Positions 34,546 through 50,196 of a DNA stretch of 55,966 nt are shown here, in pieces (positions within the stretch are counted from its first letter, which is position 1; each line of letters starts with the position of its first letter). Under the pieces are notes generated by a model. That model saw only the letters and a program-made list of their open reading frames with translations. It searched no databases and was not told the DNA's origin. A program made the translations under genes and the position numbers. The DNA lies in the NCBI GenBank assembly GCA_025356595.1, contig JANXSQ010000147.1, forward strand, positions 1 to 55,966, read 5' to 3'. The stretch comes from Janthinobacterium sp. Its GTDB lineage: Bacteria; Pseudomonadota; Gammaproteobacteria; Burkholderiales; Burkholderiaceae_D.

Positions 34546-36183
34546 ATGACATCCGACTACGACACCGGCCTGGGCAAGAACGCCGCCAACTTCGCCGCCC
34601 TGAGCCCGCTCGACTACATCGTCCGCGCCGCCGAAGTATACGGCAATCGCCCGGCCATCGTGCACGGCAGTATGCGCCAGAGCTGGGCCGAGACCTATGC
34701 GCGCACGCGGCGCCTGGCCAGCGCCCTGCGCGCGCTCGGCGTCGGCAAGGGCGACACGGTCGCCGTGATGCTGCCGAACACGCCGGCGATGGTCGAGGCC
34801 AGCTTCGGCGTGCCGATGGCCGGCGCCGTCCTCAACGCCCTCAACATCCGCCTCGACCTGGCGACGCTGACCTTCATGCTGCGCCACAGCCAGGCCAAGG
34901 TTCTGCTGGTCGACACCGAGTTCGCCGAGCTGGCGCGCCAGTTGGGCCAGCAACTGCCGCAGCTGCACCTGATCCAGGTCAACGACCTGCTGGGCCCGGA
35001 CGCCGGCGCGCCCTTCGGCCGGACCGACTACGAAAGCCTGCTGGCCGGCGGCGACCCGGCCTACGCCTGGCGGGCGCCGGACGACGAATGGGACGCCATC
35101 GCCATGAACTACACCTCCGGCACCACGGGCGACCCGAAGGGCGTGGTCTACCACCACCGCGGCGCGGCCCTGAACGCCATCTCCAACATCCTCGAATGGG
35201 ACATGCCCAAGCACGCCGTCTACCTGTGGACGCTGCCCATGTTCCATTGCAACGGCTGGTGCTTCCCCTGGACCATCGCCGCGCGCGCCGGCGTCAACGT
35301 CTGCCTGCGCAAGTTCGAGCCGAAACTGGTCTTCGACCTGATGCGCGAGCACAAGGTCAGCCACTACTGCGCCGCGCCCATCGTCCACGCGGCGCTGGCC
35401 AACGCACCGGCCGCCTGGCGCGAGGGCATCGCCGGCCCGGTGCGCGGCATGGTCGCCGGCGCGCCGCCGCCGGCCGCCATGCTGGCCAAGATCGAGGCCA
35501 TGGGCTTCGAACTGATCCACGCCTACGGCCTCACCGAAGTCTACGGCCCGGCCGCCATCTGCGCCGAGCAGGACGGCTGGGACGCGCTGTCGCAGCAGGA
35601 GCGCGCCGTGCGCAAGTCGCGCCAGGGCGTGCGCTACCACCTGCAGGGCGCCGTCGCCGTGCTCGACCCGGACAGCATGCTGCCGGTGGCCGCCGACGGC
35701 GAGACCATCGGCGAGATCATGTTCCGCGGAAATATCTGCATGAAGGGCTATCTGAGGAATGAAAAGGCCACGCAGGAAGCCTTCGCCGGCGGCTGGTTCC
35801 ACACCGGCGACCTGGGCGTGATCTACCCGGACGGCTACATCAAGCTGAAGGACCGCAGCAAGGACATCATCATCTCCGGCGGCGAGAACATCTCCAGCGT
35901 CGAAGTCGAAGACGCGCTCTACCACCACCCGGACGTGCTGGCCGCCGCCGTCATCGCCCAGCCCGACGAGAAATGGGGCGAGACGCCCTGCGCCTTCGTC
36001 GAACTGCGCGAAGGCAGCCGGCTCGGCGCGGCCGAGCTGATCGCCTTCTGCAAGGCCAACCTGGCCGGCTTCAAGGTGCCGAAAGCGATCTACTTCGGCC
36101 CGCTGCCGCGCACCTCGACCGGCAAGATCCAGAAATTCGAACTGCGCAAGCGCATGCACTCGGACAGCGCCATCGACGTGTAA
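34546..36183 (+). CDS. Acyl-CoA synthetase (AMP-forming, medium-chain / AlkK-DmdB-like)
   Basis: 545 residues of the ANL superfamily. The phosphate-binding loop is YTSGTTGDPKGV (about residues 186-197); the adenine motif YGLTEVYGP, the hinge TGDLGVIYPDGYIKLKDRSKD and the catalytic lysine in PRTSTGKIQKFELRK near the C-terminus are all present. It activates a carboxylic acid to its CoA thioester via an acyl-adenylate. The closest families by motif are medium-chain and methylthioalkanoate CoA ligases; the substrate is not determined by sequence alone. An AGGAG site lies eight bases before the ATG. It ends 12 bases before a strong hairpin. Confidence 0.92.
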   Translation: MTSDYDTGLGKNAANFAALSPLDYIVRAAEVYGNRPAIVHGSMRQSWAETYARTRRLASALRALGVGKGDTVAVMLPNTPAMVEASFGVPMAGAVLNALNIRLDLATLTFMLRHSQAKVLLVDTEFAELARQLGQQLPQLHLIQVNDLLGPDAGAPFGRTDYESLLAGGDPAYAWRAPDDEWDAIAMNYTSGTTGDPKGVVYHHRGAALNAISNILEWDMPKHAVYLWTLPMFHCNGWCFPWTIAARAGVNVCLRKFEPKLVFDLMREHKVSHYCAAPIVHAALANAPAAWREGIAGPVRGMVAGAPPPAAMLAKIEAMGFELIHAYGLTEVYGPAAICAEQDGWDALSQQERAVRKSRQGVRYHLQGAVAVLDPDSMLPVAADGETIGEIMFRGNICMKGYLRNEKATQEAFAGGWFHTGDLGVIYPDGYIKLKDRSKDIIISGGENISSVEVEDALYHHPDVLAAAVIAQPDEKWGETPCAFVELREGSRLGAAELIAFCKANLAGFKVPKAIYFGPLPRTSTGKIQKFELRKRMHSDSAIDV

Positions 36184-36195
36184 GCGCGCCGCCGC

Positions 36196-36269
36196 AAAAC
36201 CGGGGACAGTCCACGATTTCCGGGCAATACTTTCCCGGAAATCGTGCTCTGTCCCCGGTTTTGTTTTTC
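36196..36269 (+). terminator. REP-like hairpin, also a terminator
   Basis: A 30-base left arm (36196-36225, beginning CAAAACCGGGGACAG) is the reverse complement of the right arm (36235-36264) except for two central positions; the loop is nine bases and TTTTT follows. It directly follows the acyl-CoA synthetase gene and should terminate it. The arm sequence with GGGGACAG and CACGATTTCCGGG looks like a dispersed REP-type repeat and not a gene-specific terminator. No second copy is in this window. Confidence 0.7.
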
Positions 36270-36661
36270 CTTGCTTTTTTTCCTTGACGAAAGAAAGCCG
36301 GCGCAAGTAGACTGCGCATGTTTATATTATATGGAGTCCCTTTCATGGGCACTTGTTCGAGTGATAGTTGTTGCCAGAGACACTCTGGCTCCGCCTCGGC
36401 AAGATAACGCAGGGACTTTCTCCTGTCGTCATCGCGCCATAGGCCGATGATGGCATCCCAGTAGCGCCGGCGCAATTCCGGCCTATGCAGTTTCATCAAA
36501 CACACCATCCAGCATTGCATTCGCCGCCCCGCGCGGCGGATACCTTCCGCTTGACGCCGCGCCTTCGGGAGCGCGCGCCTGCGCGGCGGCGAGTCCCGCG
36601 CAGGCGGGCATGCGACAAGCACTGATGCAAGGCCCTCCCGTTCACCCAAACGAAGGTAGTC
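36270..36661. other. Intergenic region with small ORF candidate and GC hairpin
   Basis: 392 bases upstream of the OprB-type porin. A minus-strand frame from ATG 36496 reads MKLHRPELRRRYWDAIIGLW and looks coding for about 55 residues, but then runs into the REP-like hairpin, so it may be a remnant. Near the porin, CGCCTGCGCGG and CCGCGCAGGCG (within 36577-36606) form a perfect 11-bp stem without a T run. The porin promoter is probably here but no clear boxes were seen. Confidence 0.35.
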
Positions 36662-37993
36662 ATGTCATACCACACCATTCAGCGACTGTACGCAGTCTTG
36701 GGCGCCGCCTTGTCCGCGCTGGCGCCGGCCCTGCACGCCGAAACCATCGCCGCCGAGGCCTGGAGCGCGCACGCGCAGGCGACTTACATCTGGCAGGATA
36801 AGCCCTCTTTTTCCGCCGCGTACAGCGGGCCGAAGAGCCTCGACAGCGCGGCCGAAAAGGGCTATTCCTTCAGCGCCACGGCGGCGCTGGGCGCGCGCCT
36901 GTGGCGCGGCGCCGAACTCTACGCGGACGGCGAAGTGGTCCAGGGCAAAGCCTTGTCCGGCCTGACGGGCCTGGCCGGCATGAGCAACGGCGAACAGCAA
37001 AAGACCAGCAGCGCCAATCCCACCTTCTACCGCGCCCGCCTGTTCCTGCGCCAGAGCGTCGGATTCGGCGGCGAACAAGAGGCGCAGGAGTCCGACGCCC
37101 ACCAATTGGCCGGCATGGTGGATAAAAACCGTCTCGTGGTGACTTTCGGTAATCTTGCGGTCACAGACATATTCGATAATAGCGCCCTTGCACACGACGC
37201 CCGCAGCCAGTTCATGAACTGGTCCCTGCTGGCGCACGGTGCCTACGACTTCGCCGCCGACGCGCGCGGCTACAGCTGGGGAGGCGCCATCGAATACTAT
37301 ACCGAAGACTGGGCCCTGCGCGCCGGACGCTTCCTGCAGCCGGCCGAATCGAACGGCCTGGCGCTGGACAGCCGCATCCTGCGCCACTACGGCGACCAGA
37401 TCGAAATCGAGCACGCCCACCAACTGGGCGGGCTGCCCGGCAAACTGCGCCTGCTGGCCTTCCGCAACCACGCCGTCATGGGCGGCTTCCGCGACGCGCT
37501 GGCCGCCGCGCCGGCCGACGGCGCCGCGCCGCCCGAGCTCTCCGCCGTGCGCAAGCCGGCCAGCAAGCGCGGCTTCGGCATCGGCGCCGAGCAAAAAGTC
37601 GCCGCCGACCTGGGCCTGTTCGCCCGCGCCAGCCGCAACGACGGCGCCACCGAAGCCTACGCCTTCACCGAAATCGAACGCTCGATCTCGGCCGGCGCCG
37701 CGCTGCAGGGCCAGCGCTGGCAACGTCCGGCCGACAGCGTCGGCCTGGCCGTGGTGCGCAACGGTCTGTCGGGCGCCCACCGCGACTATCTGGCGGCCGG
37801 CGGCGTCGGCGCCTTCATCGGCGACGGCCGCCTGCGCTATCGCCCCGAAACCATCGTCGAGGCGTACTACAGCGCCGGCGTCGGCGCCCGCGCCTGGCTG
37901 ACATTCGATGCCCAAAGGATAAGCAATCCGGCCTACAATGCTGACCGCGGGCCCGTCAGCGTGGCCTCCGTCCGGCTGCACGCACAATACTAA
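36662..37993 (+). CDS. OprB-family carbohydrate-type outer-membrane porin
   Basis: 443 residues. Signal peptide about 1-26 (ends ALHA). Family stretches include WSAHAQATYIWQDKPSFSAA, NPTFYRARLFLRQSVG, SDAHQLAGMVDKNRLVVTFG and DARSQFMNWSLLAHGAYDFA, typical of the OprB group. The C-terminus is HAQY, ending in an aromatic residue as beta-barrels do. First gene of a tight run: only 11 bases separate it from the ABC permease. Despite the family name, its partner is an anion-type ABC permease, so the substrate may not be a sugar. Confidence 0.9.
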   Translation: MSYHTIQRLYAVLGAALSALAPALHAETIAAEAWSAHAQATYIWQDKPSFSAAYSGPKSLDSAAEKGYSFSATAALGARLWRGAELYADGEVVQGKALSGLTGLAGMSNGEQQKTSSANPTFYRARLFLRQSVGFGGEQEAQESDAHQLAGMVDKNRLVVTFGNLAVTDIFDNSALAHDARSQFMNWSLLAHGAYDFAADARGYSWGGAIEYYTEDWALRAGRFLQPAESNGLALDSRILRHYGDQIEIEHAHQLGGLPGKLRLLAFRNHAVMGGFRDALAAAPADGAAPPELSAVRKPASKRGFGIGAEQKVAADLGLFARASRNDGATEAYAFTEIERSISAGAALQGQRWQRPADSVGLAVVRNGLSGAHRDYLAAGGVGAFIGDGRLRYRPETIVEAYYSAGVGARAWLTFDAQRISNPAYNADRGPVSVASVRLHAQY

Positions 37994-38004
37994 GAGGAAG
38001 CCTC

Positions 38005-39747
38005 ATGTTCGAGCTGTTCAATCCCCGCCGCGCGCCCTCCTCGCTGCTGCGCGTCCGTCCCAACCGCTGGGACTGGATCCTGCTGCCGCTGGTGCTGGCC
38101 ATCCTCGCCGCGCTGGCCTTCGGCGCGCTGCAGATGAGCCGTCCCTTCGTCATCGGCGAATCGATTCCCATCTCGCTGGAGCCGGAATACCTGCCCTATT
38201 ACCTGCTGCGCACCATCATGCGCATGTTCATCGCGCTCGGCTGCTCGCTGCTGTTCAGCCTCGCCTTCGCCGCCATCGCCTCGAAGTACAAGGCGGCCGA
38301 AAAGCTCATGATACCGCTGCTCGACATCCTCCAGTCGGTGCCGGTGCTGGGCTTCCAGGCGATCGCCATCGCGCCCTTCATCGCCCTCTTCCCCGGCAAT
38401 CTGCTGGGCGCCGAATGCGCCGCCATCTTCGCCATCTTCACCTCGCAGGCGTGGAACATGGCCTTCAGCCTGTACCAGTCGATGCGCACCGTGCCGCCCG
38501 AGCTGCACGAGGCGGCGCGCGTCTTCCGCCTGTCCGGCTGGCAGCGCTTCTGGCGCCTGGAACTGCCCTTCGCCATGCCCGGCCTGCTGTGGAACATGAT
38601 GATGTCGATGTCCGGCGGCTGGTTCTTCCTGGTCGCCGCCGAAGCCATCTCGGTGGCCGGCCAGGACATCAAGCTGCCCGGCATCGGCGCCTACATCGCC
38701 GTCGCCATCGAGGCCGAGAACGGCCGCGCCATCGGCATGGCGATCGCCGCCATGCTGGCCGGCATCCTGCTGTACGACCAACTGTTCTTCCGTCCCCTGC
38801 TGGCCTGGGCCGACAAATTCCGCTTCGAGGAGTCGCAGGGCGAGGCGACGCAGAATTCCTGGTTGCTCGACTTCACCCGCCGCAGCCGCTGGATGCGCCT
38901 GCTCTCCGAGCGCTTCTGGCGCATGATGCGCGGCGCGCTGGGCTGGTTCAGCGTCGGCCCCGGCCCGGTCGCGCCGCGCCGCCACGGCGTCGCCTTCAGC
39001 GCCGTCGCGCCGCTGCTGGCGCGCTCCTGGGACAAGCTGGTGCTGCTGGCGGCCGTGCTGGCCGCCTACCGCCTGGTGATGTTCGTGCACAGCGACGTCG
39101 GCGCCGCCGAGGCCCTGCACGTGGTCGGCCTGGGCCTGATCACCCTGCTGCGCGTGATGCTGCTGATCGGCCTGGCCTCGCTGGTCTGGGTGCCGCTGGC
39201 CGTCTGGATCGGCTTGCGCCCGGCCTATTCGCAGCGCGTCCAGGCGGTGGCGCAATTCCTCGCCGCCTTCCCGGTCAACCTGATGTTCCCGCTAGTGGTC
39301 TACCTGCTGGTGACCTTCAAGCTGAACCCGAACATCTGGCTGAGTCCCCTGATGGTCTTCGGCACGCAATGGTATATATTGTTCAATGTCGTCGCCGGCG
39401 CCTCGGCGATCCCGAATGAACTGCGCCTGGCCGCCGACAACCTCGGCCTGAAGGGCTGGTTGAAGTGGAAGCGCGTCTATCTGCCGGCCGTCTTCCCCAG
39501 CTTCATCACCGGCGCCATCACGGCCAGCGGCGGCTCCTGGAACGCCAGCATCGTCGCCGAATACGTCACCTGGGGCAAGACCACCCTGGTCGCGGACGGC
39601 CTGGGCAGCTACATCAAGCAGATGACCGACGCCGGCGACTTCCACCGCATCGCCCTGGGCATCGGCGTGATGTGTATCTTTGTCATGTTATTGAACCGCT
39701 TCTTCTGGCGCAAGCTGTACATGCTCGCCGAAGACCGCAGCCGTTGA
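38005..39747 (+). CDS. Duplicated ABC transporter permease (COG4986 type)
   Basis: 580-residue inner-membrane protein with two fused permease halves. Coupling-helix motifs are ELHEAARVFRLSGWQRFWRL in the first half and LRLAADNLGLKGWLKWKRVY in the second. Each half has five to six hydrophobic segments. A charged linker of about 60 residues around 280-340 joins them. Such fused permeases belong to the nitrate/sulfonate/taurine-like importer class and need no second permease. No substrate-binding protein is encoded nearby, which is unusual for this class. Spacing of 11 bases on both sides supports one operon with the porin and ATPase. Confidence 0.9.
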   Translation: MFELFNPRRAPSSLLRVRPNRWDWILLPLVLAILAALAFGALQMSRPFVIGESIPISLEPEYLPYYLLRTIMRMFIALGCSLLFSLAFAAIASKYKAAEKLMIPLLDILQSVPVLGFQAIAIAPFIALFPGNLLGAECAAIFAIFTSQAWNMAFSLYQSMRTVPPELHEAARVFRLSGWQRFWRLELPFAMPGLLWNMMMSMSGGWFFLVAAEAISVAGQDIKLPGIGAYIAVAIEAENGRAIGMAIAAMLAGILLYDQLFFRPLLAWADKFRFEESQGEATQNSWLLDFTRRSRWMRLLSERFWRMMRGALGWFSVGPGPVAPRRHGVAFSAVAPLLARSWDKLVLLAAVLAAYRLVMFVHSDVGAAEALHVVGLGLITLLRVMLLIGLASLVWVPLAVWIGLRPAYSQRVQAVAQFLAAFPVNLMFPLVVYLLVTFKLNPNIWLSPLMVFGTQWYILFNVVAGASAIPNELRLAADNLGLKGWLKWKRVYLPAVFPSFITGAITASGGSWNASIVAEYVTWGKTTLVADGLGSYIKQMTDAGDFHRIALGIGVMCIFVMLLNRFFWRKLYMLAEDRSR

Positions 39748-39758
39748 GAGAGCACCGA

Positions 39759-41051
39759 ATGAATCTGATCGAATTAGACGCCGTCGCCAAATCCTTCCGC
39801 CGTCCCGACGGCGCCCCGCGCACCGTGCTGGAGAACGTCGACTTCAAGCTGGCCGACGGCGAAATCGTCGCCCTGCTGGGCAAGTCCGGCTCGGGCAAGT
39901 CGACGCTGCTGCGCATCATCGCCGGCCTGATCCCGGCCGACGCCGGGCGCGCCAACTACCGCGGCGCGCCCATCGACGGGCCGGCCTCCGGCATCGCCAT
40001 GGTGTTCCAGTCCTTCGCCCTGTTCCCCTGGCTGACGGTGCAGCAGAACGTCGAACTGGGCCTGGAGGCCCAGGGCGTCGCGCCGGCCGAACGGGAGCGG
40101 CGCGCCGACGCCATGCTCGAACTGATCGGCCTGGCCGGCTTCGGCGGCGCCCTGCCGCGCGAACTCTCGGGCGGCATGCGCCAGCGCGTCGGCATCGCCC
40201 GCGCCCTGGTCACCGACCCCGACGTGCTGCTCATGGACGAGGCCTTCTCGGCCCTCGACGTGCTGACCGGCGAAACCCTGCGCGACGACATCCTCGACCT
40301 GTGGGACGGCAGCCGCATCCACACCAAGGGCATCCTCATCGTCTCGCACAACATCGAGGAGGCGGTGATGATGGCCGACCGCATCATCATCATGTCCAGC
40401 GATCCGGGGCGCATCCGCAGCGAGATCGTCATCGAGCAGCCGCGCCCGCGCAACGCCGATTCGGCCGAGGTGCGCGCCCTGATCGACGAGGTCTACGGCC
40501 TGATGACGATGCGCGCCGCGCCGCCCGCCGCGGGCGCGCTGGCGCCGGCCGCGCGGCCCGACTACCGCCTGCCGGAAACGGACGTCAGCCACATCGAGGC
40601 GGTGCTGGAACTGCTGGCCGACGCGCCCTTCAACGGCCGCGCCGACTTGCCGCAACTGGCCGAGGAGGCGGAGATCGCCGACGAGGAATTGTTCCCCGTC
40701 TACGAGGCGCTCGGCATGCTGGGCCTGGCCCACGTCGAGAAGGGCGACATTTCCCTCACCCCGCTGGGCCTGCGCTACGTCGAGGCCGAGCAGTCCGAGC
40801 GCCAGCACATCTTCGGCCAGCAATTGCTGTCGCAGGTGCCGCTGGCGGCGCGCATCCGCGAACTGCTGGAGGCGCAGCCGAACGGCGAGTTGCCGGAGCA
40901 ACCCTTCATCGCCCTGCTGGAGGAATACCTGAAGAGCGACGAGGCCAACCGCGTGCTGGAGATCGCCATCGAGTGGGGCCGCTACGGCGAGATCTACGAG
41001 TACGACTTCCACACCGGCCGGCTGGCCCTGCCGGAACAGGCCGAACAGTAA
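39759..41051 (+). CDS. ABC transporter ATPase with C-terminal AAA-associated domain
   Basis: 430 residues. ABC domain (1-255): Walker A GKSGSGKST (41-49), signature LSGGM (136-140), Walker B LLMDEA (157-162) and switch His in LIVSHNIEEA; closest to NrtD/SsuB-type ATPases. A linker is followed by an extra domain (about 275-425: SHIEAVLELLADAPFNGRAD, GDISLTPLGLRYVEAEQSER) that resembles the AAA-associated C-terminal domain (winged-helix-like). This domain may regulate the pump or sense nucleotide or anion status. It has 11 bases to the permease and three to the MgtC gene. Confidence 0.9.
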   Translation: MNLIELDAVAKSFRRPDGAPRTVLENVDFKLADGEIVALLGKSGSGKSTLLRIIAGLIPADAGRANYRGAPIDGPASGIAMVFQSFALFPWLTVQQNVELGLEAQGVAPAERERRADAMLELIGLAGFGGALPRELSGGMRQRVGIARALVTDPDVLLMDEAFSALDVLTGETLRDDILDLWDGSRIHTKGILIVSHNIEEAVMMADRIIIMSSDPGRIRSEIVIEQPRPRNADSAEVRALIDEVYGLMTMRAAPPAAGALAPAARPDYRLPETDVSHIEAVLELLADAPFNGRADLPQLAEEAEIADEELFPVYEALGMLGLAHVEKGDISLTPLGLRYVEAEQSERQHIFGQQLLSQVPLAARIRELLEAQPNGELPEQPFIALLEEYLKSDEANRVLEIAIEWGRYGEIYEYDFHTGRLALPEQAEQ

Positions 41052-41054
41052 GCC

Positions 41055-41561
41055 ATGGCGCACTTCTTCGACCTGAGCGACTACGCCGAAGCCTTCCTGC
41101 GCCTGCTCGCCGCCGTGCTGGCCGGCAGCGTGGTGGGCCTGGACCGCAACCTGCACGGCAAGCCGACCGGCATCAAGACCATGGGCCTGGTGGCGCTGGG
41201 CGCCGCGCTGGCCACCATGGCCAGCATGAACTTCGACTTCGCCCCCCGCGCCTACCACGACGACGCCGTCAGCCGCGCCATCCAGGGCATCATCACCGGC
41301 ATCGGCTTCCTCGGCGCCGGCGTCATCGTGCACGACCGCAACACCGAGCACGTGCGCGGCCTGACGACGGCCGCCTCCACCTGGGTGACGGCGGCGCTGG
41401 GCATCGTCTGCGGCCTGGGCCACTGGCCCATCGCCGCCATCGCCATCATCATGGCGCTGCTGCTGTTCTTCGTCGGCCGCCCGCTGGAGCGCATGTTGCA
41501 CCGAAAATGGCTGAGCAAGCCGAGTGAGGAAAGGGATGATATTTCTAAACACGAGGAGTGA
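41055..41561 (+). CDS. MgtC/SapB-family inner-membrane protein
   Basis: 168 residues with four or five membrane segments. The conserved N-terminal stretch includes LRLLAAVLAGSVVGLDRNLHGKPTGIKT and GIITGIGFLGAGVIVHDRN, then TTAASTWVTAALGIVCGLG, all MgtC hallmarks. Salmonella MgtC supports growth at low magnesium and in macrophages and modulates ATP synthase and phosphate uptake; simple SapB-like forms such as this lack the long C-terminal domain. Its place in a porin-ABC-DUF2252-CYTH operon links it to ion or phosphate balance, by inference. Confidence 0.92.
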   Translation: MAHFFDLSDYAEAFLRLLAAVLAGSVVGLDRNLHGKPTGIKTMGLVALGAALATMASMNFDFAPRAYHDDAVSRAIQGIITGIGFLGAGVIVHDRNTEHVRGLTTAASTWVTAALGIVCGLGHWPIAAIAIIMALLLFFVGRPLERMLHRKWLSKPSEERDDISKHEE

Positions 41562-41617
41562 GGAAGCCGTCACACTGGCTTGAGCACCCACCGCAACCGC
41601 CCGCCCCAAGGTCCTCC

Positions 41618-42997
41618 ATGAAACCGTCCGACTACGCCACGCCCCCGGCCGCGCACAACGCCGCCAACGCCGCCCGCATCGCCGCCGGGCGCCTGCTGCG
41701 CCAGCGCGCGCCGCGCTCGGCGCACGGCCGCTGGCGCGCCGCCGCCAAGGGCCGCGACGTGGTCGCCCTGCTGGAGGAATCGAACACCGGCCGCATCGCC
41801 GAGCTGCTGCCGATACGCTACGGGCGCATGCTCGCCTCGCCCTTCGCCTTCCTGCGCGGCGCCGCCGGCGTCATGGCCTTCGACCTGGCGGCGACGCCCG
41901 TCTCGGGCCTGCGCGTGCAAGCGGGCGGCGACTGCCATCTGATGAACTTCGGCGAATTCGGCACGCCCGAGCGCAACCTGATCTTCGACATCAACGACTT
42001 CGACGAAACCCTGGCCGGCCCCTGGGAATGGGACATCAAGCGCCTGGCCGCCAGCGTCATGGTGGCGGCGCGCTCGCGCCACTTCCCGGAGCGCAACTGC
42101 CAGGAACTGGTGCACGCCACCGTCGCCGCCTACCGCGACAAGATGGCCGAGTTCGCGCACATGAGCCCCCTGCAACGCTGGTACGCCCGCATCAACGCCC
42201 AGGACCTCGTCGAGCTGGGCCGCACCAGCGACATCCGCCGCGAGCGCGCCAGCCAGGCGGCCCAGGCGCGCGCCCAGACCAACGAACGCCTGCTGCACAA
42301 ATCGACCGTCGTCGTGGCCGGCCGGCGGCGCATTCAGGACAATCCGCCGCTGGTCTACCACCCGACCCGCGCGCCCGGCTTCGACAATGAAATGCGCGCC
42401 TTCTTCCAGCACTACCGGCACAGCCTGCAGAACGACCGCCGCCTGCTGCTCGACCAGTACGAACTGGTCGACGTGGCCATGAAGGTGGTCGGCGTGGGCA
42501 GCGTCGGCACGCGCTGCGCGGTGGCCCTGTTCATGGCCGACGGCTGCGATCCCCTCTTCCTGCAGTTCAAGGAGGCGCGCGCCTCGGTGCTCGAACCCTA
42601 CCACGGCAAGAGCCCCTACGAACAGGCCGGCCAGCGCATCGTCGAGGGGCAAAGGCTGATGCAATCGTCGAGCGACATCTTCCTCGGCTGGGCGCGCGAC
42701 GCCGACAGCGGCATCGACTATTACATCCGCCAGTTGCGCGACATGAAGAGCTCGATCGACATCGCCAGCATCGAACTGCCCGAACTGATCGACTACGCCG
42801 GCTTCTGCGCCTGGGCGCTGGCGCGCGCCCATGCCAAGTCCGGCCACCCGGCCTCCATCCTCGGCTACCTGGGCCAGAACGACGGCTTCGAGCGCGCCCT
42901 GGGCAACTTCGCCCGCGCCTACGCCGACCAGACCGAGGCCGACCACGCCGCGCTGAAAAGAGCCGTCGCCAGCGGTCGCCTGGCGGCCGCCATCTAA
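41618..42997 (+). CDS. DUF2252 family protein
   Basis: 459 residues, soluble. The family core is clear: GDCHLMNFGEFGTPERNLIF, DINDFDETLAGPWEWDIKRL and later FLQFKEARASVLEPY and YYIRQLRDMKSSID. The HxxNFG and DFDE stretches resemble the catalytic and metal-binding loops of kinase-fold phosphotransferases; whether it is an active kinase is not established. I chose ATG 41618 (AAGG upstream); a GTG at 41558 overlaps the MgtC stop and would add 20 residues. It lies three bases before the CYTH-CHAD gene, so both are probably translated together. Confidence 0.87.
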   Translation: MKPSDYATPPAAHNAANAARIAAGRLLRQRAPRSAHGRWRAAAKGRDVVALLEESNTGRIAELLPIRYGRMLASPFAFLRGAAGVMAFDLAATPVSGLRVQAGGDCHLMNFGEFGTPERNLIFDINDFDETLAGPWEWDIKRLAASVMVAARSRHFPERNCQELVHATVAAYRDKMAEFAHMSPLQRWYARINAQDLVELGRTSDIRRERASQAAQARAQTNERLLHKSTVVVAGRRRIQDNPPLVYHPTRAPGFDNEMRAFFQHYRHSLQNDRRLLLDQYELVDVAMKVVGVGSVGTRCAVALFMADGCDPLFLQFKEARASVLEPYHGKSPYEQAGQRIVEGQRLMQSSSDIFLGWARDADSGIDYYIRQLRDMKSSIDIASIELPELIDYAGFCAWALARAHAKSGHPASILGYLGQNDGFERALGNFARAYADQTEADHAALKRAVASGRLAAAI

Positions 42998-43000
42998 ATC

Positions 43001-44524
43001 ATGGAAATCGAACTCAAACTCAGCCTGGAGCCGGGCGCAGCCGACAAACTGCGCCGCCTGGCCCTGCTGCGCCGCCACGCCGGCGCCAAACCCAGCCGCG
43101 GCGAACTGCCGGCCATCTACTACGACACGCCGGACTTCTACCTGATGCGCCACGGCGCCGGCCTGCGCGTGCGCGCCGAGCGCGGCGTCTGGACGCAAAC
43201 GCTGAAGGCCGGCGGCAGCGTGCTGGCCGGCCTGCACCGGCGCCACGAATGGGAATGCGCGGTCGGCGACGAGCGCGCCGACCTGGCCGCGCTGCGCGCC
43301 GCCATGCGCGAGGCGCCGGCCTGGGCCGCCGTGCTGGCCGCGCCGGCCCTGCAGGAGCGTCTGCAGGCCCTGTTCACGGTGCGCGTGCGGCGCAGCACCT
43401 GGCTGCTGCACGTGGACGGGGCCGAGATCGAACTGGTGCTCGACGAAGGCACGCTGGAAGGCTGCGGGCAAAGCCAGCCGATCTGCGAGATCGAACTCGA
43501 ACTGCTGAGCGGACAACCCGGCCAGTTGTACGACTTCGCCCTGCAGCTGCTGCAACACCTGCCGCTGCGCCTGGACAACCGCAACAAGGCCGAACGCGGC
43601 TACGCCCTGTGCCTGCCGGCCCCCGGCGCGCCGGCGCCCGTCACGGCGCGCGCGCTGAGCCTGCAGCGCCAGGCCGGCGTCGGGGAAGGCCTGCAAGCCA
43701 TCCTCGGCAACTGCATCGCCCACATCCAGGGCAACGAAGCGGGCGTGCTCGACGGACGCGACCCTGAATGCCTGCACCAGATGCGCGTCGGCGTGCGGCG
43801 CCTGCGCTCGGCCCTGAAACTTTTCGCCCCGGTGGCGCCCTGCCCGCCCGAACTGCTCGCCGAACTGGACTGGCTGGGCGCCGCGCTGGGCGCCGCGCGC
43901 GACTGGGACGTGATGGCCACCTCGACCCTGGCCCTGCTGCCGGCCGACGCCAAGCCGGCCGCGCCGCTGTCGGAGATGGTGGCGGCGATGCGCGCCCGGC
44001 AACAGCGGCGCGTCGCCGACGCCCTGCGCTCGCCCCGCTACACCGGCCTGCTGCTGGCCTTTTGCGCCTGGCTGCCGGACGCCGGGCGCGAAGGGGAAGT
44101 CATGCTGGCCTCGCTGGACCAGACGCTGGCCGAGTTCGCCGACGCCACCCTGCGCGCGGCGCGGCGGCGTCTGCGCAAGCGCGGCCGCCGCATCGCCGAG
44201 GCGGATGCGCACGCGCTGCACCGCCTGCGCATCGCCGTCAAGAAAGCCCGCTACACGGCGCAATTCTTCGCCTCACTGTACCGCGCCAAGCCGGGCAAGG
44301 CCTACGCCGCCGCGCTGGGCGCGCTGCAGGACGAACTGGGTTGGCGCAACGACGTCGACGTGGCCGACCGCCTGCTGCAACAATTGCCGCAGGACGGAGC
44401 GGAACAAAGCGCCGCCGTCGCCTTCGCCCGCGGCTACCTGCTGGCGCGCCTGGCGGCCCAGCCCGACAAGCTGCGCCGCGCCTGGCGCGCGCTGCGCGAC
44501 CTGCCGCTGCCGTCCGCCGCCTGA
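43001..44524 (+). CDS. CYTH-CHAD domain protein (inorganic triphosphatase-like)
   Basis: 507 residues. The N-terminal CYTH domain (about 1-200) starts MEIELKLSL with the ExExK signature and has YYDTPDFYLMRHGAGLRVR, the tunnel-lining charged residues of triphosphatases such as YgiF. The C-terminal CHAD domain (about 225-500) contains HQMRVGVRRLRSALKLF and HRLRIAVKKARYTAQFF, basic histidine-rich helices that bind polyphosphate in characterised members. It probably cleaves inorganic triphosphate and binds polyphosphate. Last gene of the tight run that begins with the porin. Confidence 0.92.
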   Translation: MEIELKLSLEPGAADKLRRLALLRRHAGAKPSRGELPAIYYDTPDFYLMRHGAGLRVRAERGVWTQTLKAGGSVLAGLHRRHEWECAVGDERADLAALRAAMREAPAWAAVLAAPALQERLQALFTVRVRRSTWLLHVDGAEIELVLDEGTLEGCGQSQPICEIELELLSGQPGQLYDFALQLLQHLPLRLDNRNKAERGYALCLPAPGAPAPVTARALSLQRQAGVGEGLQAILGNCIAHIQGNEAGVLDGRDPECLHQMRVGVRRLRSALKLFAPVAPCPPELLAELDWLGAALGAARDWDVMATSTLALLPADAKPAAPLSEMVAAMRARQQRRVADALRSPRYTGLLLAFCAWLPDAGREGEVMLASLDQTLAEFADATLRAARRRLRKRGRRIAEADAHALHRLRIAVKKARYTAQFFASLYRAKPGKAYAAALGALQDELGWRNDVDVADRLLQQLPQDGAEQSAAVAFARGYLLARLAAQPDKLRRAWRALRDLPLPSAA

Positions 44525-44750
44525 CAGGCGCAAGCGCGGCGCCACCCGCGCCGCCATCGTGGCCGTGCGCCGCGCGCCGGCCCGTTACCCCATGTAAGCA
44601 ATTGCAAGCATGGCTGAGCTGGATAGAGGGCGACGCTAGAATGAAGCCCCTTTACCGAATTCATCACGATCCGTCCCCCGCCGGGGCCGCCCCGCGCGGC
44701 GCAGTCCGGCAGCGACACGCTCGCGGGGCAGGCAGATCAAAGGAGCGCAC
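44525..44750. other. Intergenic region before the hemerythrin-like gene
   Basis: 226 bases following the CYTH-CHAD gene. A TAGAAT (44637-44642) could be a -10 box, but no -35 element at normal distance was found. No terminator is visible, so readthrough from the operon is possible. Confidence 0.35.
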
Positions 44751-45284
44751 TTGCTAATCACCACCTACGTCTTGCTGACCCTGTCGGTCGAGCAAAAGAA
44801 AGAACGCAGCTTCATCGCCCACATCCGCAACTATCTGCTGGCGAACGCCGGCAAGCAACAGGAAATCGACCCCGCCCACCTGCAAGCCCGGCTCGACGAA
44901 CTGGCCGGTTTCGCCGAAACGCGCCACCGCCACAAACTCGAACGCTGCCTGATGCCGGCCGTGCGCCTGGCCAGCGCGGAAGCGAGCCCCCTGCTGGCCG
45001 ACCTGGAACTGCTCGGCCGCACGGGCGGCAACATGCTGCGCTCGGTGCGCCGGCGCCTGCACCAGGCCTTCGCCGAGGGCGGCGAACAAATCCAGATGCT
45101 CTGCCGCACGCTGGAACGCTATTGCCAGAACCTGCTGGAACGGCTGGCCAAGGAAGAACAGGAATTGCTGCCGCTGGCGCGCCGCGTCATCTCGAACGAA
45201 CAATGGTTCGCCATCGGCGCCATGTTCCTCTCGCACGACGCCGGCGACGCCGAGCGCCAGCGCCTGCGTTTGCGGGTGGAGTAG
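44751..45284 (+). CDS. Hemerythrin-like helical protein with TTG start
   Basis: 177 residues, all predicted helix. The start is a TTG: AAAGGAG lies six bases before it and no in-frame ATG fits. The C-terminal stretch YCQNLLERLAKEEQELLPLARRVISNEQWFAI resembles the final helices of bacterial hemerythrin-like proteins, where the equivalent of KEEQELLP is usually HxxxEE. The iron-binding histidines are mostly missing, so it is either a degenerate hemerythrin or an unrelated four-helix protein. Function not assigned. It may be co-expressed with the preceding operon. Confidence 0.65.
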   Translation: MLITTYVLLTLSVEQKKERSFIAHIRNYLLANAGKQQEIDPAHLQARLDELAGFAETRHRHKLERCLMPAVRLASAEASPLLADLELLGRTGGNMLRSVRRRLHQAFAEGGEQIQMLCRTLERYCQNLLERLAKEEQELLPLARRVISNEQWFAIGAMFLSHDAGDAERQRLRLRVE

Positions 45285-45439
45285 GCGCCTCGACCCGCGC
45301 GCCACGGCAAGCATGTTCCGCGCAAAAAATTCGTTTCCTGGACGGCCGCTTACACCCCTTGCAGGCCTTGCTTATCCGGCATGCCAGCCGTTCAAGCCAG
45401 AAGCGGCCCCCGGCAACTCATGTCGGGGGAGAAACTCCC

Positions 45440-45829
45440 CTATTTCCGGGCAGACTGCTTGAGCCGGGTCGTGAGCAGCTCGTACTTCTGCTCCGAGGTA
45501 TCCGCCAACGCCGCATCGCGCGACGACGGAGTATCGTCATATGGGACAGGTTCGGCGAACTGGCGAGCTGTCAGATCCCACTTCCTTCCATCGATCAGAT
45601 TATAGAAGTGCGTTCCGCCGGATGTTTTGGTGGTAAGAATCTCACCACCGAAATAATCTTGCACGACAAGAGAAGTAATGCTGCAATGATTCTGCGCAGG
45701 ATTTGCTTCTGACCAGGCATCCGTTGGACTTGAAGTGTCGCCGGACCATACCCGGGAAATCGACCTGTAAAGATCGAGTGGAGTGGCAAACGTATTCGAT
45801 GCGACAGTCATCTTAATCTCTTGGTTCAT
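45440..45829 (-). CDS. YunG-like protein
   Basis: 129 residues, soluble. It resembles the YunG family: SRVWSGDTSSPTDAW, then NPAQNHCSITSLVVQDYFGGEI, GGTHFYNLIDGRKWDLTARQF. The conserved Cys, His and Asp spacing recalls a cysteine-protease or transglutaminase-like arrangement, but no activity is known for this family. The gene is more AT-rich than its neighbours and stands alone. The ATG at 45829 is preceded by GGGA; an ATG six codons later is an alternative. Confidence 0.75.
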   Translation of the reverse strand: MNQEIKMTVASNTFATPLDLYRSISRVWSGDTSSPTDAWSEANPAQNHCSITSLVVQDYFGGEILTTKTSGGTHFYNLIDGRKWDLTARQFAEPVPYDDTPSSRDAALADTSEQKYELLTTRLKQSARK

Positions 45830-46022
45830 TGCAAAAAATCCCTATTCCAGATCGCTTAATAGCGCGTTTGGTCTCGCGACCGGCCGGAGTTGGCCGTTTG
45901 CTGCCGGTCTCCAATATGCCACAAGTGTAGTCCAATGAACGGAGCTTTTCTGGAGCACCGTTGGCGCCATGCGCCGGAGTCGGCCGGCGCGGCGCGCGGC
46001 ATCAGGTTCGAATGCGCCTGAA
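45830..46022. other. Intergenic region
   Basis: 193 bases between the YunG-like start and the GGDEF-EAL stop. It should contain the YunG-like promoter. GC-rich short repeats around 45880-45910 could fold but have no T run. No gene seen. Confidence 0.4.
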
Positions 46023-49000
46023 TCATCTGAGCAATGCCAACAAGGCATCCGCCGGCACTGCTTTGCTGTAATAAAATCCCTGGCCTTCATGGCAGCCATG
46101 CGCCAACAGGAACTGGGCCTGTTGCAACGTTTCCACGCCTTCGGCAATGACCTCCAGGTGCAGGCTGGCGGCCATCGCGATGATGGCCGTGACCAGCGCC
46201 GTGTCGTTCGGGTCTTTGCCGATATCACGCACAAACGACTGGTCAATCTTGAGCGCGTGCACCGGGAATCGTTGTAGGTAAGCCAGGCTCGAATAGCCAG
46301 TGCCAAAGTCGTCCACTGTCAGCTGTATTCCCATGCAGCTAAGCCGGGTCAGCTTGGCAAGATTGAAATCGCTGCGCTGCAGCAGGATGCTTTCAGTGAT
46401 CTCCAGCTCGAGAGCGGTGGCGGGAATTCCCGTCTCAACCAGGATCTGCGCGACCAGACTGCAGAAGCCGGCTTGTTCCAGCTGCCGGGGCGACAGGTTG
46501 ACCGCCATTTTCAACTCCGGGTAGCCCGCATCGTGCCAGATCTTCAACTGCCGGCAAGCCTGGCGCAGCGCCCATTCGCCGATCGGCACGATCAGCCCGG
46601 ACTCTTCCGCGTTCGCAATGAATGCGCCGCAGGAAATCGCCGGTTTCCCCGGCGGCTGCCACCGCAGCAGCGCTTCGGTTGAAAATGTCATGCCGCTTTC
46701 CATGTCCACCTGCGGCTGGTAATGCAAGACGAATTCGTTCTGCGCCAATGCCTGCCGCAAGCGGGTGCTCACGTCAAGGCGCTGCTGCGCCGCCTGGTTG
46801 AGCGCGGGGGTGAAGAACTGGAAATTGCCGCGTCCCATTTCCTTGGCATGGTACATCGCCGTATCCGCAGTGCGCATCAGCGTTTCCACGTCGCTGCCGT
46901 CGTCGGGGTACAGGCTGATGCCGATGCTGCCGCTGAGGTGCAGCTCGTGCCTCTCGACGATGAAGGGCTGCGCCAGGGTATCGAGCGCCTTTTGCGCCAC
47001 CCGTGCGGCGTCGCTGCTGTCGCCCAGCAAGGGCAGGCTGAGGACGAATTCGTCGCCGCCCAGCCGGGCCACGCTGTCGCCTTCGCGCAAACATTTTTGG
47101 AGGCGCACTGAGGCCATTTGCAACACCGCATCGCCAATGTGGTGTCCCAGCGAGTCGTTAATATTCTTGAAGTGGTCCAGGTCGATGAACAGTGTCGCCA
47201 CCCGGCGCTGAGTGCGGTGCGCATGCGCAATGGCCTGATGCAAGCGGTCCTGCAGCAGAACGCGATTGGGCAATCCGGTCAAGGCGTCATGGTCGGCCAT
47301 ATGGCGGACCCGCTCTTCGGCCTGCTTGCGCGCGCTGAGGTCAAGCACGAAACTGACGCCCTGTTCGCACGATCCTTCGAACATGGCGCGGCCGACCAGA
47401 ACGGGGATGCGTTGGCCATCCTTGCGAATGAATTCCTTTTCAAAGGGCGTGCACGAGCCGGTTTTCATGAGTTCTTCATAGGACCGCTCATCGACCGCAT
47501 GGTATTCCGGCGGCGTCATGTCTTTCCATCGGATGTTGCCCAATAAAAGATCTTCCCTTGAATAAGCGGAAAGCTGTAGAAAAGCGTCGTTCGCATCAAT
47601 GATGCTGCCGGCGGTATTCCAGAACATCACGCCGATGATGTTGGCTTCCATCAGACGCCGAATCCGTGCCTCCTTCTCGCGCAACGCCTCCCCGGCGCGC
47701 TTGCGCTCACTGATGTCGCGGATGAAACCGGCAAACAAGGTGCTTCCTCCTGACGCAATATGGCTAAAAGAAATTTCCACAGGGAATTCGTGACCGTCAC
47801 GATGTAATGCAATGATCTCCGTATGACGCCAGTCCAGCTTCTTGACGCCGGTCTCCAGATACCGCCGAAGTCCTTGGGCATGGGCCTGGCGCAGACGCTC
47901 CGGTTGCAGCATCGCCACCTGCTGTCCTATCAGCGTCTCGGGGGAATAGCCGAAGACTTCCACCACGGAAGGGTTGGCAAATCGAATCACGTTTTCCTGG
48001 TCCAGCATGATGACCGCATCGGTGGTGGTTTCCCAGAGCAGCCGGTATTTTTGCTCGCTCTCCCGCAACGCTTCCTCGGCGCGCTTGCGCTCGCTGATGT
48101 CGCGCGCAATCGCCGAGGCGCCAGTCACCATGCCCCCGCAGTCGCGGATCGGGGAGATGGTGAGCGACACATCGATGCGACGTCCGTCCTTACGCACCCC
48201 GACGGTTTCGAAGTGTTCGACCCGCTCGCCTCGCCGCAGGCGCTCCAGAATTTCTGGCGTCTCGTCGGCCAACTCGGGCGGGGCCAGGATCGAAATCGGT
48301 CGGCCCAGCATCTCGCTGGCACTGTAGCCGTACATGCGCTCGGCGCCGGCGTTCCAGCTGACCATGGTGCCGTCTAGCGTTTTGCCGATGATGGCGTCGC
48401 CGGAAGAGGTGACGATGGCAGCCAGCTGCAGTGCGACCCGCTCGGCCTGGCGTGTGCGCTCCAGGTCGTTCGTGCGTTGGGCGGCCATTTGCTCGAACAA
48501 CATGGCGTGGCCGCTTGTCACGAGCAGGAAGGCGCCGAGCAAGCCCGTAAACGCCATCCCGCCGGCAAGCACGGACCAGGCAAGCGGAGTATGCAGGGCA
48601 GCAAAAAACGGTTCCTTGCCGCCGGTAAAAACGCCAAGAATCACCGCAAATGCCAGACAAATAGGGATTGCCACCGTTTTGCGCCGGCGCCGCCAGATAG
48701 CGTGCGGCCGCCCGAACCACGTCAGTACCAGCGGCGTTGCGACCAGTACGCCAATTGCGTCCCCGATCCACCAGATCCACCAGTTGAAGGTGGAGTTACT
48801 TTCCGGCAACTTACCGGCAAGTAGCAGCGTTGTCACGCCCACGCTGGCACCGATCACGCAACTGGCCGGCCCGCCCAGACCGAGAAACTTGATGACATCC
48901 TGTACGCGGTCCAGCGGCGTCGGGAAGCCCACGAAACGGCGAATCAAGATCGCGCCAGCGATGGCCTGGAGGGTGTCGCCGGCGCCAAGACCGGCTGGCA

Positions 49001-49262
49001 AGAGCAGCGATTTCACGAGCAAGGCGGTGCTGCTGGCATCGAATGAGATGGCAACATTGGCAAGAAACGAGCCCAGCCAGATGCCGGGTGCCACGCGTTT
49101 GCCGAAGATGAGGACTGCGGCAAGCGCAATTCCGGCGGCAGGCCAGATGGGTGCGGCATATCCGGGCGGGAGGGCCAGCAGCAAACCGAATTGGGCGGCA
49201 ATGTAATAGATAAGGGCGAGAACGAGGATCTCACCGCTCCGGCGGATCATCTGACTCTGCAT
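46023..49262 (-). CDS. MASE1-PAS-GGDEF-EAL cyclic-di-GMP signalling protein
   Basis: 1079 residues. An N-terminal MASE1-type membrane sensor (about 10-255, eight hydrophobic segments) is followed by three PAS domains (about 280-392, 405-520, 535-645), GGDEF (about 655-815) and EAL (about 835-1075). The cyclase motif GGDEF is intact at 735-739, with an inhibitory I-site RxxD (REGD, 726-729) five residues before it. The phosphodiesterase motif EAL is intact at 863-865 with ELEITES and [11 protein letters not shown]. It could therefore make and break cyclic-di-GMP. The start has a GAGGTAAAAC site. Composition is less GC-rich than nearby metabolic genes. Input signal unknown. Confidence 0.95.
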
Positions 49263-49731
49263 GTTTTACCTCACCGAATGAGGCCTCCGAAAGTACGGAG
49301 TGGAAGAAGGCGCGGAAAAGCGCTCAACTCTCTAGTGTGTCACACGCCAACAAAAGTATCCGAGTCACTCGTGTTTGAAACCTTGTCTCACAGATAGTAA
49401 GACACAATTTTGCGACGAAAAGTTCTTGGAGGTCGAGGACCGGAATGGTGCAGATTGGCGATCGACGCCGATGAGTAATCCACGATTGCCCGAGCTGACT
49501 GCGGCGTTGAAATGGCCAGTGCTCGATTTTCACAAAACGCGGTCCAACAAACCGGTTCCAGGAACGGCGGCGCGCGGTGACTCTTGGCGCATTTCAGTCG
49601 CAATTATTGCTGGTTTTCGCCGATGGAATGCGGGTCGCTCCCGTCAAATGCCGCTCGCTACAGGTACTGCTTGCTTCGCGGTCAGAACGCGCTATAGTCA
49701 AGGTATAGTCCGGTATCGGAGAGTTACCATC
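49263..49731. other. Intergenic region with possible AbiEii remnant
   Basis: 469 bases between divergent genes. A minus-strand frame (49324-49533) reads IPVLDLQELFVAKLCL, which resembles the motif near the end of AbiEii-type nucleotidyltransferases, then stops; it is short and degenerate. On the plus strand TATAGTC occurs twice (49693-49699 and 49704-49710), 11 bases apart, in front of the next gene and may include its -10 box. Confidence 0.35.
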
Positions 49732-50196
49732 ATGAGCAGCAGCATCGCCCCCCTCGCCAGCAGCATCCCCGGCATTGCGCCCGTCGCCGCGCCGCGCCCG
49801 CCGGCCAATCTGGCCGCGCTGGCCGTCGATCTGGCCGGCGAATCGAGCGTGGTGTCGCTGCTGGGCGGCGCCGGCAATCAGGTGCAGCTCTACGACGCCC
49901 AAGGGCTGCTGAACTCCTTCAGACAGGCCGGCGCGACGCCGTCGCCCGCCGTCGTACCCCCGGCCGGCAGCGACACGCAAACGAGCGCGCGGGATAGTCT
50001 GGATCAGGCGATTCTCGGCGCCCCGGCGGCCGGCAGCGCCGTCGCTTCCGGCGAATACAGCGGCACGGGCGGCGTACCCAACCTGCCTTCCGGCGGCACC
50101 CCGACCGACTGGGCCGGCATCCTGAAGAACGATCCCGGCGCGGCCGGCGCGGTCATCGCCGACTCCTTCGCCCAAGGCATACTCGCCACCCTGTAG
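49732..50196 (+). CDS. Hypothetical Ala/Gly/Pro-rich protein
   Basis: 154 residues. I do not recognise the family. It is low in complexity with many Ala, Gly, Pro and Ser residues: an N-terminal SSSIAPLASSIPGIAPVAAP, a possible helix AALAVDLAGESSVVSLLGGA, and a C-terminal GAAGAVIADSFAQGILATL. There is no signal peptide or membrane segment. The start is supported by GGAGAG seven bases upstream and TATAGT-like boxes. Codon use is as GC-rich as the true genes around it, and no other frame is as good. Confidence 0.7.
   Translation: MSSSIAPLASSIPGIAPVAAPRPPANLAALAVDLAGESSVVSLLGGAGNQVQLYDAQGLLNSFRQAGATPSPAVVPPAGSDTQTSARDSLDQAILGAPAAGSAVASGEYSGTGGVPNLPSGGTPTDWAGILKNDPGAAGAVIADSFAQGILATL

Follow-up and report, generated by a model that had tools for sequence, protein, structure and literature searches.

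A Janthinobacterium gene unit placing a predicted anion-class ABC importer before MgtC, DUF2252 and CYTH-CHAD genes

We analysed a stretch of 55,966 nucleotides of Janthinobacterium sp. (contig JANXSQ010000147.1 of assembly GCA_025356595.1, positions 1 to 55,966 of the forward strand), which as a whole we call the window, and in particular six consecutive plus-strand genes encoding a porin, the permease and the ATPase of an ATP-binding cassette (ABC) transporter, an MgtC-family protein, a DUF2252 protein and a CYTH-CHAD protein. We tentatively read these genes as a two-module transcription unit specific to this genome, in which anion import would be tied to the use of phosphate and polyphosphate. 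The families are known and their combination is new, with DUF2252 as the lead to follow; a first-pass annotation of this DNA knew of no characterised system with this set, and no report of the combination was found in the literature excerpts examined. The six genes, with Pfam accessions and E values, are the following:

36662..37993, plus strand: OprB-type outer-membrane porin, 443 amino acids (aa); PF04966 1.2e-37
38005..39747, plus strand: ABC permease with two BPD_transp_1 halves on a single chain, 580 aa; PF00528 1.1e-26, in two stretches
39759..41051, plus strand: ABC ATPase with a C-terminal AAA_assoc_C domain, 430 aa; PF00005 9.3e-34, PF09821 6.6e-38 (residues 298-416)
41055..41561, plus strand: short MgtC-family membrane protein, 168 aa; PF02308 1.8e-36, no PF21770 match
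41618..42997, plus strand: DUF2252 protein with a predicted kinase fold, 459 aa; PF10009 1.6e-144
43001..44524, plus strand: CYTH-CHAD protein, of predicted inorganic triphosphatase/polyphosphate-binding type, 507 aa; PF01928 4.7e-23, PF05235 1.7e-62

The open reading frames (ORFs), their ends and their spacing were as first annotated (gaps of 11, 11, 3, about 56 and 3 bases, measured here as 11, 11, 3, 56 and 3), and the domain identities proposed for the six genes were borne out by Pfam, each well over its cut-off. Since each ORF scores far above the cut-off of its own family, the six are genuine genes and not chance ORFs. DUF2252 could alternatively start from a GTG at position 41558, in which case it would share 4 bases with mgtC. 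The tight spacing on one strand is consistent with a single transcription unit.

What the sequences show is the content, order and spacing of the genes, the conserved kinase-type residues of DUF2252 and its neighbours elsewhere; co-transcription, the substrate, the biochemical steps and the coupling of the two modules are inferred. In the reading that we prefer, the first module (porin, fused permease and ATPase) would import an anion as an ABC system of the nitrate/sulfonate/bicarbonate class, with no binding protein encoded next to it. Precisely, the porin would admit a small oxyanion to the periplasm and the permease, driven by the ATPase, would import it, with the AAA_assoc_C domain probably regulating the ATPase. 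The second module (MgtC, DUF2252 and CYTH-CHAD) would adjust phosphate and polyphosphate use to this import: MgtC may tune the handling of phosphate, magnesium and ATP at the membrane, DUF2252 may be a phosphotransferase that depends on ATP and has a metabolite, a lipid or the transport machinery as its target, and CYTH-CHAD may bind polyphosphate and hydrolyse triphosphate or short chains.

The DUF2252 protein matched PF10009 with 482.2 bits, against a gathering score of 22.3. In an alignment of 35 DUF2252 sequences, that of the window included, the residues G104, D105, H107, N110, N126, D127, D129, E130 and K318 are invariant, and the motifs GDxHxxNFG and NDxDE and the later lysine K318 are thus kept in 35/35. 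By analogy we take these residues to be the catalytic Asp/Asn, the metal-binding Asp and the nucleotide Lys, and the protein thus appears to retain the residues of a kinase-type enzyme. A search of the PDB returned only weak lactate dehydrogenase matches (E of 0.1 or more), which we rejected, and hence no convincing solved relative; none of 28 pattern matches in viral contigs was confirmed. According to the available excerpt of PMC9758233, DUF2252 belongs to the PKinase clan of Pfam, with the lobes in flipped order, and in the literature excerpts no characterised member or published function of the family was found.

To describe the neighbours of DUF2252 elsewhere we considered 84 loci other than the window's, namely a main set of 79 (14 from a search of the family, 3 from the class, 43 further ones from the phylum, the second copy of the window's own genome and 18 plasmid loci, these being the examined ones of 33 records found) and 5 new ones. 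These loci are not independent, since a number of them are related, and contig ends truncate some. The controls were 140 permease, CYTH-CHAD and genus loci, mostly of Burkholderiales. At all other loci genes were called with a caller trained on known genes, and their ends are approximate.

A SulP anion transporter was present within 5 kilobases (kb) of DUF2252 in 12/84 loci (11/79 in the main set and 1/5 in the new one) and in 0/140 control loci (Fisher test, 5e-6). In 10 of the 12 the two genes are less than 250 bases apart, and which of them comes first varies between loci. By source, SulP was found in 10/18 plasmid loci and 2/66 genome loci. Since the 140 controls are mostly Burkholderiales, a control within the same records is fairer for the plasmids: six plasmid records (490 kb) contain 2 SulP genes, which gives about 0.8 expected for 18 plasmid loci. 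With 10/18 against 0/140 controls and about 0.8 expected, the link between SulP and DUF2252 on plasmids is strong. The plasmid hosts are Nostoc, Rhizobium, Ensifer, Paraburkholderia, Cupriavidus and Caballeronia, and the SulP matches are partial or split in L161, L164, L255 and L262. The window's DUF2252 is a full match to the family with the kinase-type residues, but stands behind an ABC importer and MgtC instead of SulP. In a control stretch of a Cupriavidus plasmid (L316:35823-39640), two PPK2-like matches lie beside a SulP gene, with no DUF2252.

MgtC was found within 5 kb in 5/84 DUF2252 loci (L201, L280, L224, L225 and L228) and in 0/140 controls (Fisher test, 0.006 for the 79 loci, and 0.04 if L224, L225 and L228, which are from one genus, are counted once), a link that we regard as borderline. 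In L201, from the same family as the window, mgtC and DUF2252 (403 aa) are in tandem with a 1-base gap, and in L280 they are in tandem with a 72-base gap (DUF2252 of 407 aa). The other three loci belong to one genus of the order, with 44-47% guanine plus cytosine (GC). In L224 a family search placed PstA, PstB, PhoU, PhoB, PhoR and Ppx/GppA in the neighbourhood of DUF2252 and MgtC; for L225 and L228 it confirmed PhoU, and the rest of the set was named by eye. This Pst/Pho cluster is a standard locus. In L224 and L228 DUF2252 is followed by an alkaline phosphatase gene and, beyond it, another MgtC gene, and in L225 PPK2 lies some 6 kb away.

A CYTH-CHAD gene was present within 5 kb of DUF2252 in 2/84 loci, L305 and L311. 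In L311 (6055-12033) a SulP-DUF2252 pair is divergent from a CYTH-CHAD-PPK2 pair, so that four genes of anion or polyphosphate theme stand in a row; the genome is from another class of the window's phylum, presumably an alphaproteobacterium. This locus came from a search run after the SulP idea had been formed, a small test in which 1/5 new loci had SulP, and it supports the SulP-DUF2252 link without showing that the link is general. In L305 CYTH-CHAD is convergent with a DUF2252 of a short type. The neighbours in L311, in L224, L225 and L228, and in L201 and L280 are indirect support for the link to phosphate or polyphosphate proposed by the first-pass annotation.

The window's CYTH-CHAD protein, the sole CYTH-CHAD match of its genome, has as PDB relatives the inorganic triphosphatase 5a60 and the CHAD domain 6qv5, and the ExExK motif is present at its N-terminus. 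In domain order, 5a60 match and motif it resembles the YgiF-type triphosphatase of E. coli, but it is longer (507 aa) and is encoded in an importer unit. CHAD domains bind polyphosphate and enhance the activity of ygiF, as given in the excerpt of PMC6537752.

For the transporter module, a draw of 150 genomes across the order supplied 19 permease loci, named genome contigs a further 80 (the best 80 among 585) and close relatives within the family 8, which makes 107 besides that of the window. The ATPase is adjacent to the permease in all 107. A porin relative with at least 300 residues covered stands directly before the permease in 9/107 loci (in L066 as two pieces), with hosts that include Noviherbaspirillum, Telluria and Massilia. 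Since only short C-terminal porin-like stretches are upstream of some of the closest permeases (L151, L152, L153, L157 and L158, 81-84%), the porin seems dispensable. These short stretches look like gene decay.

The best NCBIfam match of the permease was NrtB (1.4e-16; 60.8 bits against an equivalog cut-off of 209.05), followed by SaoP and SsuC; PstA gave 12.5 bits against a cut-off of 193.45 (E 0.06), and PstC was absent from the matches listed. The ATPase matched best the taurine ATPase, below the equivalog cut-off, and the solved relatives of the permease in the PDB are CmpB and a nitrate permease. Our best guess for the substrate is thus an oxyanion of the nitrate/sulfonate/bicarbonate class. 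Phosphate is not favoured, and the phosphate-like substrate first proposed is not supported by these scores, nor by the scan for PHO boxes, which gave no match upstream of the porin. The window permease and ATPase score best with the families of the NrtBCD, CmpBCD and TauBC importers, but differ from them in the fused permease halves, in the AAA_assoc_C domain on the ATPase, in the unmet equivalog cut-offs and in that no binding-protein gene stands alongside. A recurring binding-protein gene was not found near the other permeases either: besides the ATPase, no cluster occurred within four genes in more than 13/107 loci, with approximate gene calls. The pair is an ordinary member of a widespread type of fused permease and AAA_assoc_C ATPase, for which no published function was found in the literature excerpts, but only in the window was it seen with MgtC, DUF2252 and CYTH-CHAD downstream. 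The COG4986 label of the permease is that of the first-pass annotation and did not come from any family search of ours.

These same matches suggest an alternative, in which the genes would be an uptake unit for nitrate or for organosulfonate/bicarbonate, MgtC would be a regulator of membrane energy or magnesium, and polyphosphate would not be involved. We consider it unlikely. The best matches of the permease (NrtB and SaoP) and of the ATPase (taurine ATPase) and the two PDB relatives argue for it, as does the placement of MgtC relatives upstream of NarK-NirB-NirD, given below; but the scores are far under the equivalog cut-offs, all the NarK loci are from one genus, and CYTH-CHAD and DUF2252 would be left unexplained.

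CYTH-type genes were near the permease in 4/107 loci (L112, L120, L122 and L123), none in the window's order. The only full CYTH-CHAD, in L123, is divergent from the permease. In L112, L120 and L122 the upstream genes are CYTH only, with a uracil-DNA-glycosylase-like gene (named by eye) between CYTH and permease and, in L120 and L122, trp-like genes (by eye) before CYTH; we considered them as chance neighbours. A CorA-family gene (cluster of L098:6264-7187) is within four genes of the permease in 9/107 loci, mostly of Duganella/Rugamonas-type hosts, and two to three genes upstream of it in 6 of the 9 placements.

A metal or envelope stress unit, in which CHAD and polyphosphate would serve as metal buffer and MgtC and the importer would serve repair, seems very improbable to us. 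CHAD proteins have been proposed in copper resistance (excerpt of PMC10892726), and to the CorA-like genes (Pfam on one member) can be added a Nramp-type gene (Pfam on one member), which directly precedes the permease in L059 and the porin in L154; but such neighbours occur at a minority of permease loci only, and no metal regulator or metal transporter is inside the unit.

We then considered the surroundings of the unit, whose neighbours are the following:

34546-36183: AMP-binding enzyme, upstream neighbour, named from sequence
44751..45284, plus strand: hemerythrin-like protein with a TTG start, 177 aa; PF01814, 26.1 bits against a cut-off of 25.3, E 1.3e-05
Opposite strand: YunG-family gene, downstream neighbour, by Pfam search

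The AMP-binding gene has orthologs of 85-87% identity in 19/20 other same-genus genomes searched, and on this basis the contig can be assigned to the genus. The permease (E 1e-50) and the window-type DUF2252 (E 1e-20) were absent from 7/7 same-genus genomes of a family draw of 145 genomes, in which, with the window's own genome included, the permease is in 56, CYTH-CHAD in 92, MgtC-type proteins in 113 and full-length window-type DUF2252 in 5. We fetched 13 of the 19 other same-genus AMP-binding loci. The block was absent downstream of the AMP-binding gene in 13/13 (matches < 45% identity filtered out), and in 12/13 one or both of the two genes that precede the AMP-binding gene were retained. 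The block may have been inserted in this genome or lost from the other members of the genus. Foreign origin by base composition was rejected, as the unit has 66-73% GC per kilobase (37 to 45 kb), with no contrast to the upstream DNA. Directly past the unit, at 45000-49999, GC falls to 58-64%.

Several results weigh against a coupled unit. The co-occurrence check of the conserved six-gene system that the first-pass annotation had proposed was negative: MgtC or DUF2252 was near the permease in 0/107 other loci, and the block is missing from the 13 syntenic loci of the genus. In the family draw only the window's genome has permease and CYTH-CHAD within 25 kb (coordinate rows compared by eye), and in no other genome examined are the two modules joined. 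No regulatory site shared by the unit was found in scans for promoters, terminators and PHO boxes: in 36150-46050 the promoter-like sites (1, against 0.9 in shuffles) and the terminator-like sites (6, against 6.2) are at chance level, and the PHO box (consensus, up to 3 mismatches) matched 4 times in the window, against 8.2 in shuffles; one match lies inside the porin gene at 37147, and the stretch from the AMP-binding gene to the porin is free of matches.

As for DUF2252, 72/84 loci are without SulP, and the 2/66 genome loci with SulP do not differ significantly from the 140 controls (Fisher test, 0.10). The DUF2252 proteins of L201, L280 and L305 belong to a shorter type that is only distantly related to the queries used (23-43%). 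Near the 79 DUF2252 loci there was no significant enrichment over the 140 controls of PhoU (2 against 3), Ppx (3 against 2), alkaline phosphatase (2 against 0) or PPK2 (0 against 0), and the 2/84 loci with CYTH-CHAD do not exceed the frequency of such genes near the permease (1 full CYTH-CHAD and 4 of any CYTH type, of 107; Fisher test, 0.41).

As for MgtC, the domain itself is clear (125.5 bits, against a gathering score of 31.4), and the protein has the PF02308 family in common with Salmonella MgtC, which activates PhoR and phosphate transport according to the excerpt of PMC6658541. It differs from it in its length of 168 aa, in that the MgtC_SapB_C domain (PF21770) had no match, and in its scores below the NCBIfam MgtC cut-offs (82.8 against 214 and 80.9 against 255 bits); being short and below these cut-offs, it may not share the effect on PhoR. 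Fifteen other genomes in the family draw have relatives of 59-72% identity, which in 7/15 loci, all from one genus, precede NarK-NirB-NirD, a placement that speaks for a link to nitrate no less than for one to phosphate.

The uncoupled explanation is a chance composite operon, in which a variable slot after the ATPase took up unrelated cargo under a shared promoter without shared function; we hold it, tentatively, about as likely as the coupled unit. The join in one genome only would be expected from it, as would the non-conserved place of the block downstream of a genus-conserved gene. In four other loci the gene after the ATPase is of DUF4337 type, at a distance of 1 base in L057, L061 and L101 and of 10 bases in L065 (by Pfam in L061, by clustering in the others), a same-strand gene of mixed kinds stands up to 450 bases upstream in 47/107 permease loci, and the rate of CYTH-CHAD near DUF2252 given above also points this way. 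Against it, three cargo genes with no relation to each other would happen to share a theme, and DUF2252 has MgtC or CYTH-CHAD as neighbours in other lineages.

In a broader form of the coupled reading, a mix-and-match module that recurs in different genomes, with DUF2252 as its phosphotransferase, would link import of inorganic anions to phosphate and polyphosphate status. The transporter would be exchangeable (SulP in the plasmid loci, L149 and L311, a fused-permease ABC transporter in the window and, in one genus of the order with lower GC, the Pst locus), while the partners that alternate would be MgtC, CYTH-CHAD and PPK2. We consider this form unlikely.

The first-pass annotation let a hemerythrin-like gene follow the six; its plus-strand ORF is present, only just over the cut-off, and its membership in the unit is uncertain given the gap of 226 bases from CYTH-CHAD. 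A role as regular partner of CYTH-CHAD was dropped. Hemerythrin-like relatives are in 80/145 family genomes (own included), and by eye all but those of the own genome and of G182 are not next to CYTH-CHAD; that of G182, in L305, stands on the side of CYTH-CHAD away from DUF2252 and is distant, without a Pfam match at 1e-5.

Some further observations regard the window's genome and its family. Around a second, shorter DUF2252 of this genome (L211:3244-4416), the stretch that was fetched contains neither MgtC nor SulP nor CYTH-CHAD within 5 kb; the assembly is in 419 contigs, which limits statements on other loci of this genome. In three family genomes (L144, L146 and L147) a fructose-1,6-bisphosphatase (FBPase)-type gene is directly before DUF2252, with gaps of 3-34 bases (4 FBPase matches among 94 neighbours scanned). 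In five same-genus loci CYTH-CHAD adjoins a conserved 346-aa gene, which has no match at E 1e-80 in the window's genome. RNA families and tRNAs were not found in the window.

The arrangement of the window's operon, seen in a single genome, is modest by itself. The two-gene SulP-DUF2252 pairs of plasmids would be an easy system in which to test the role of DUF2252. If the association holds, DUF2252 would be a kinase-type enzyme that couples anion transport to phosphate and polyphosphate status.

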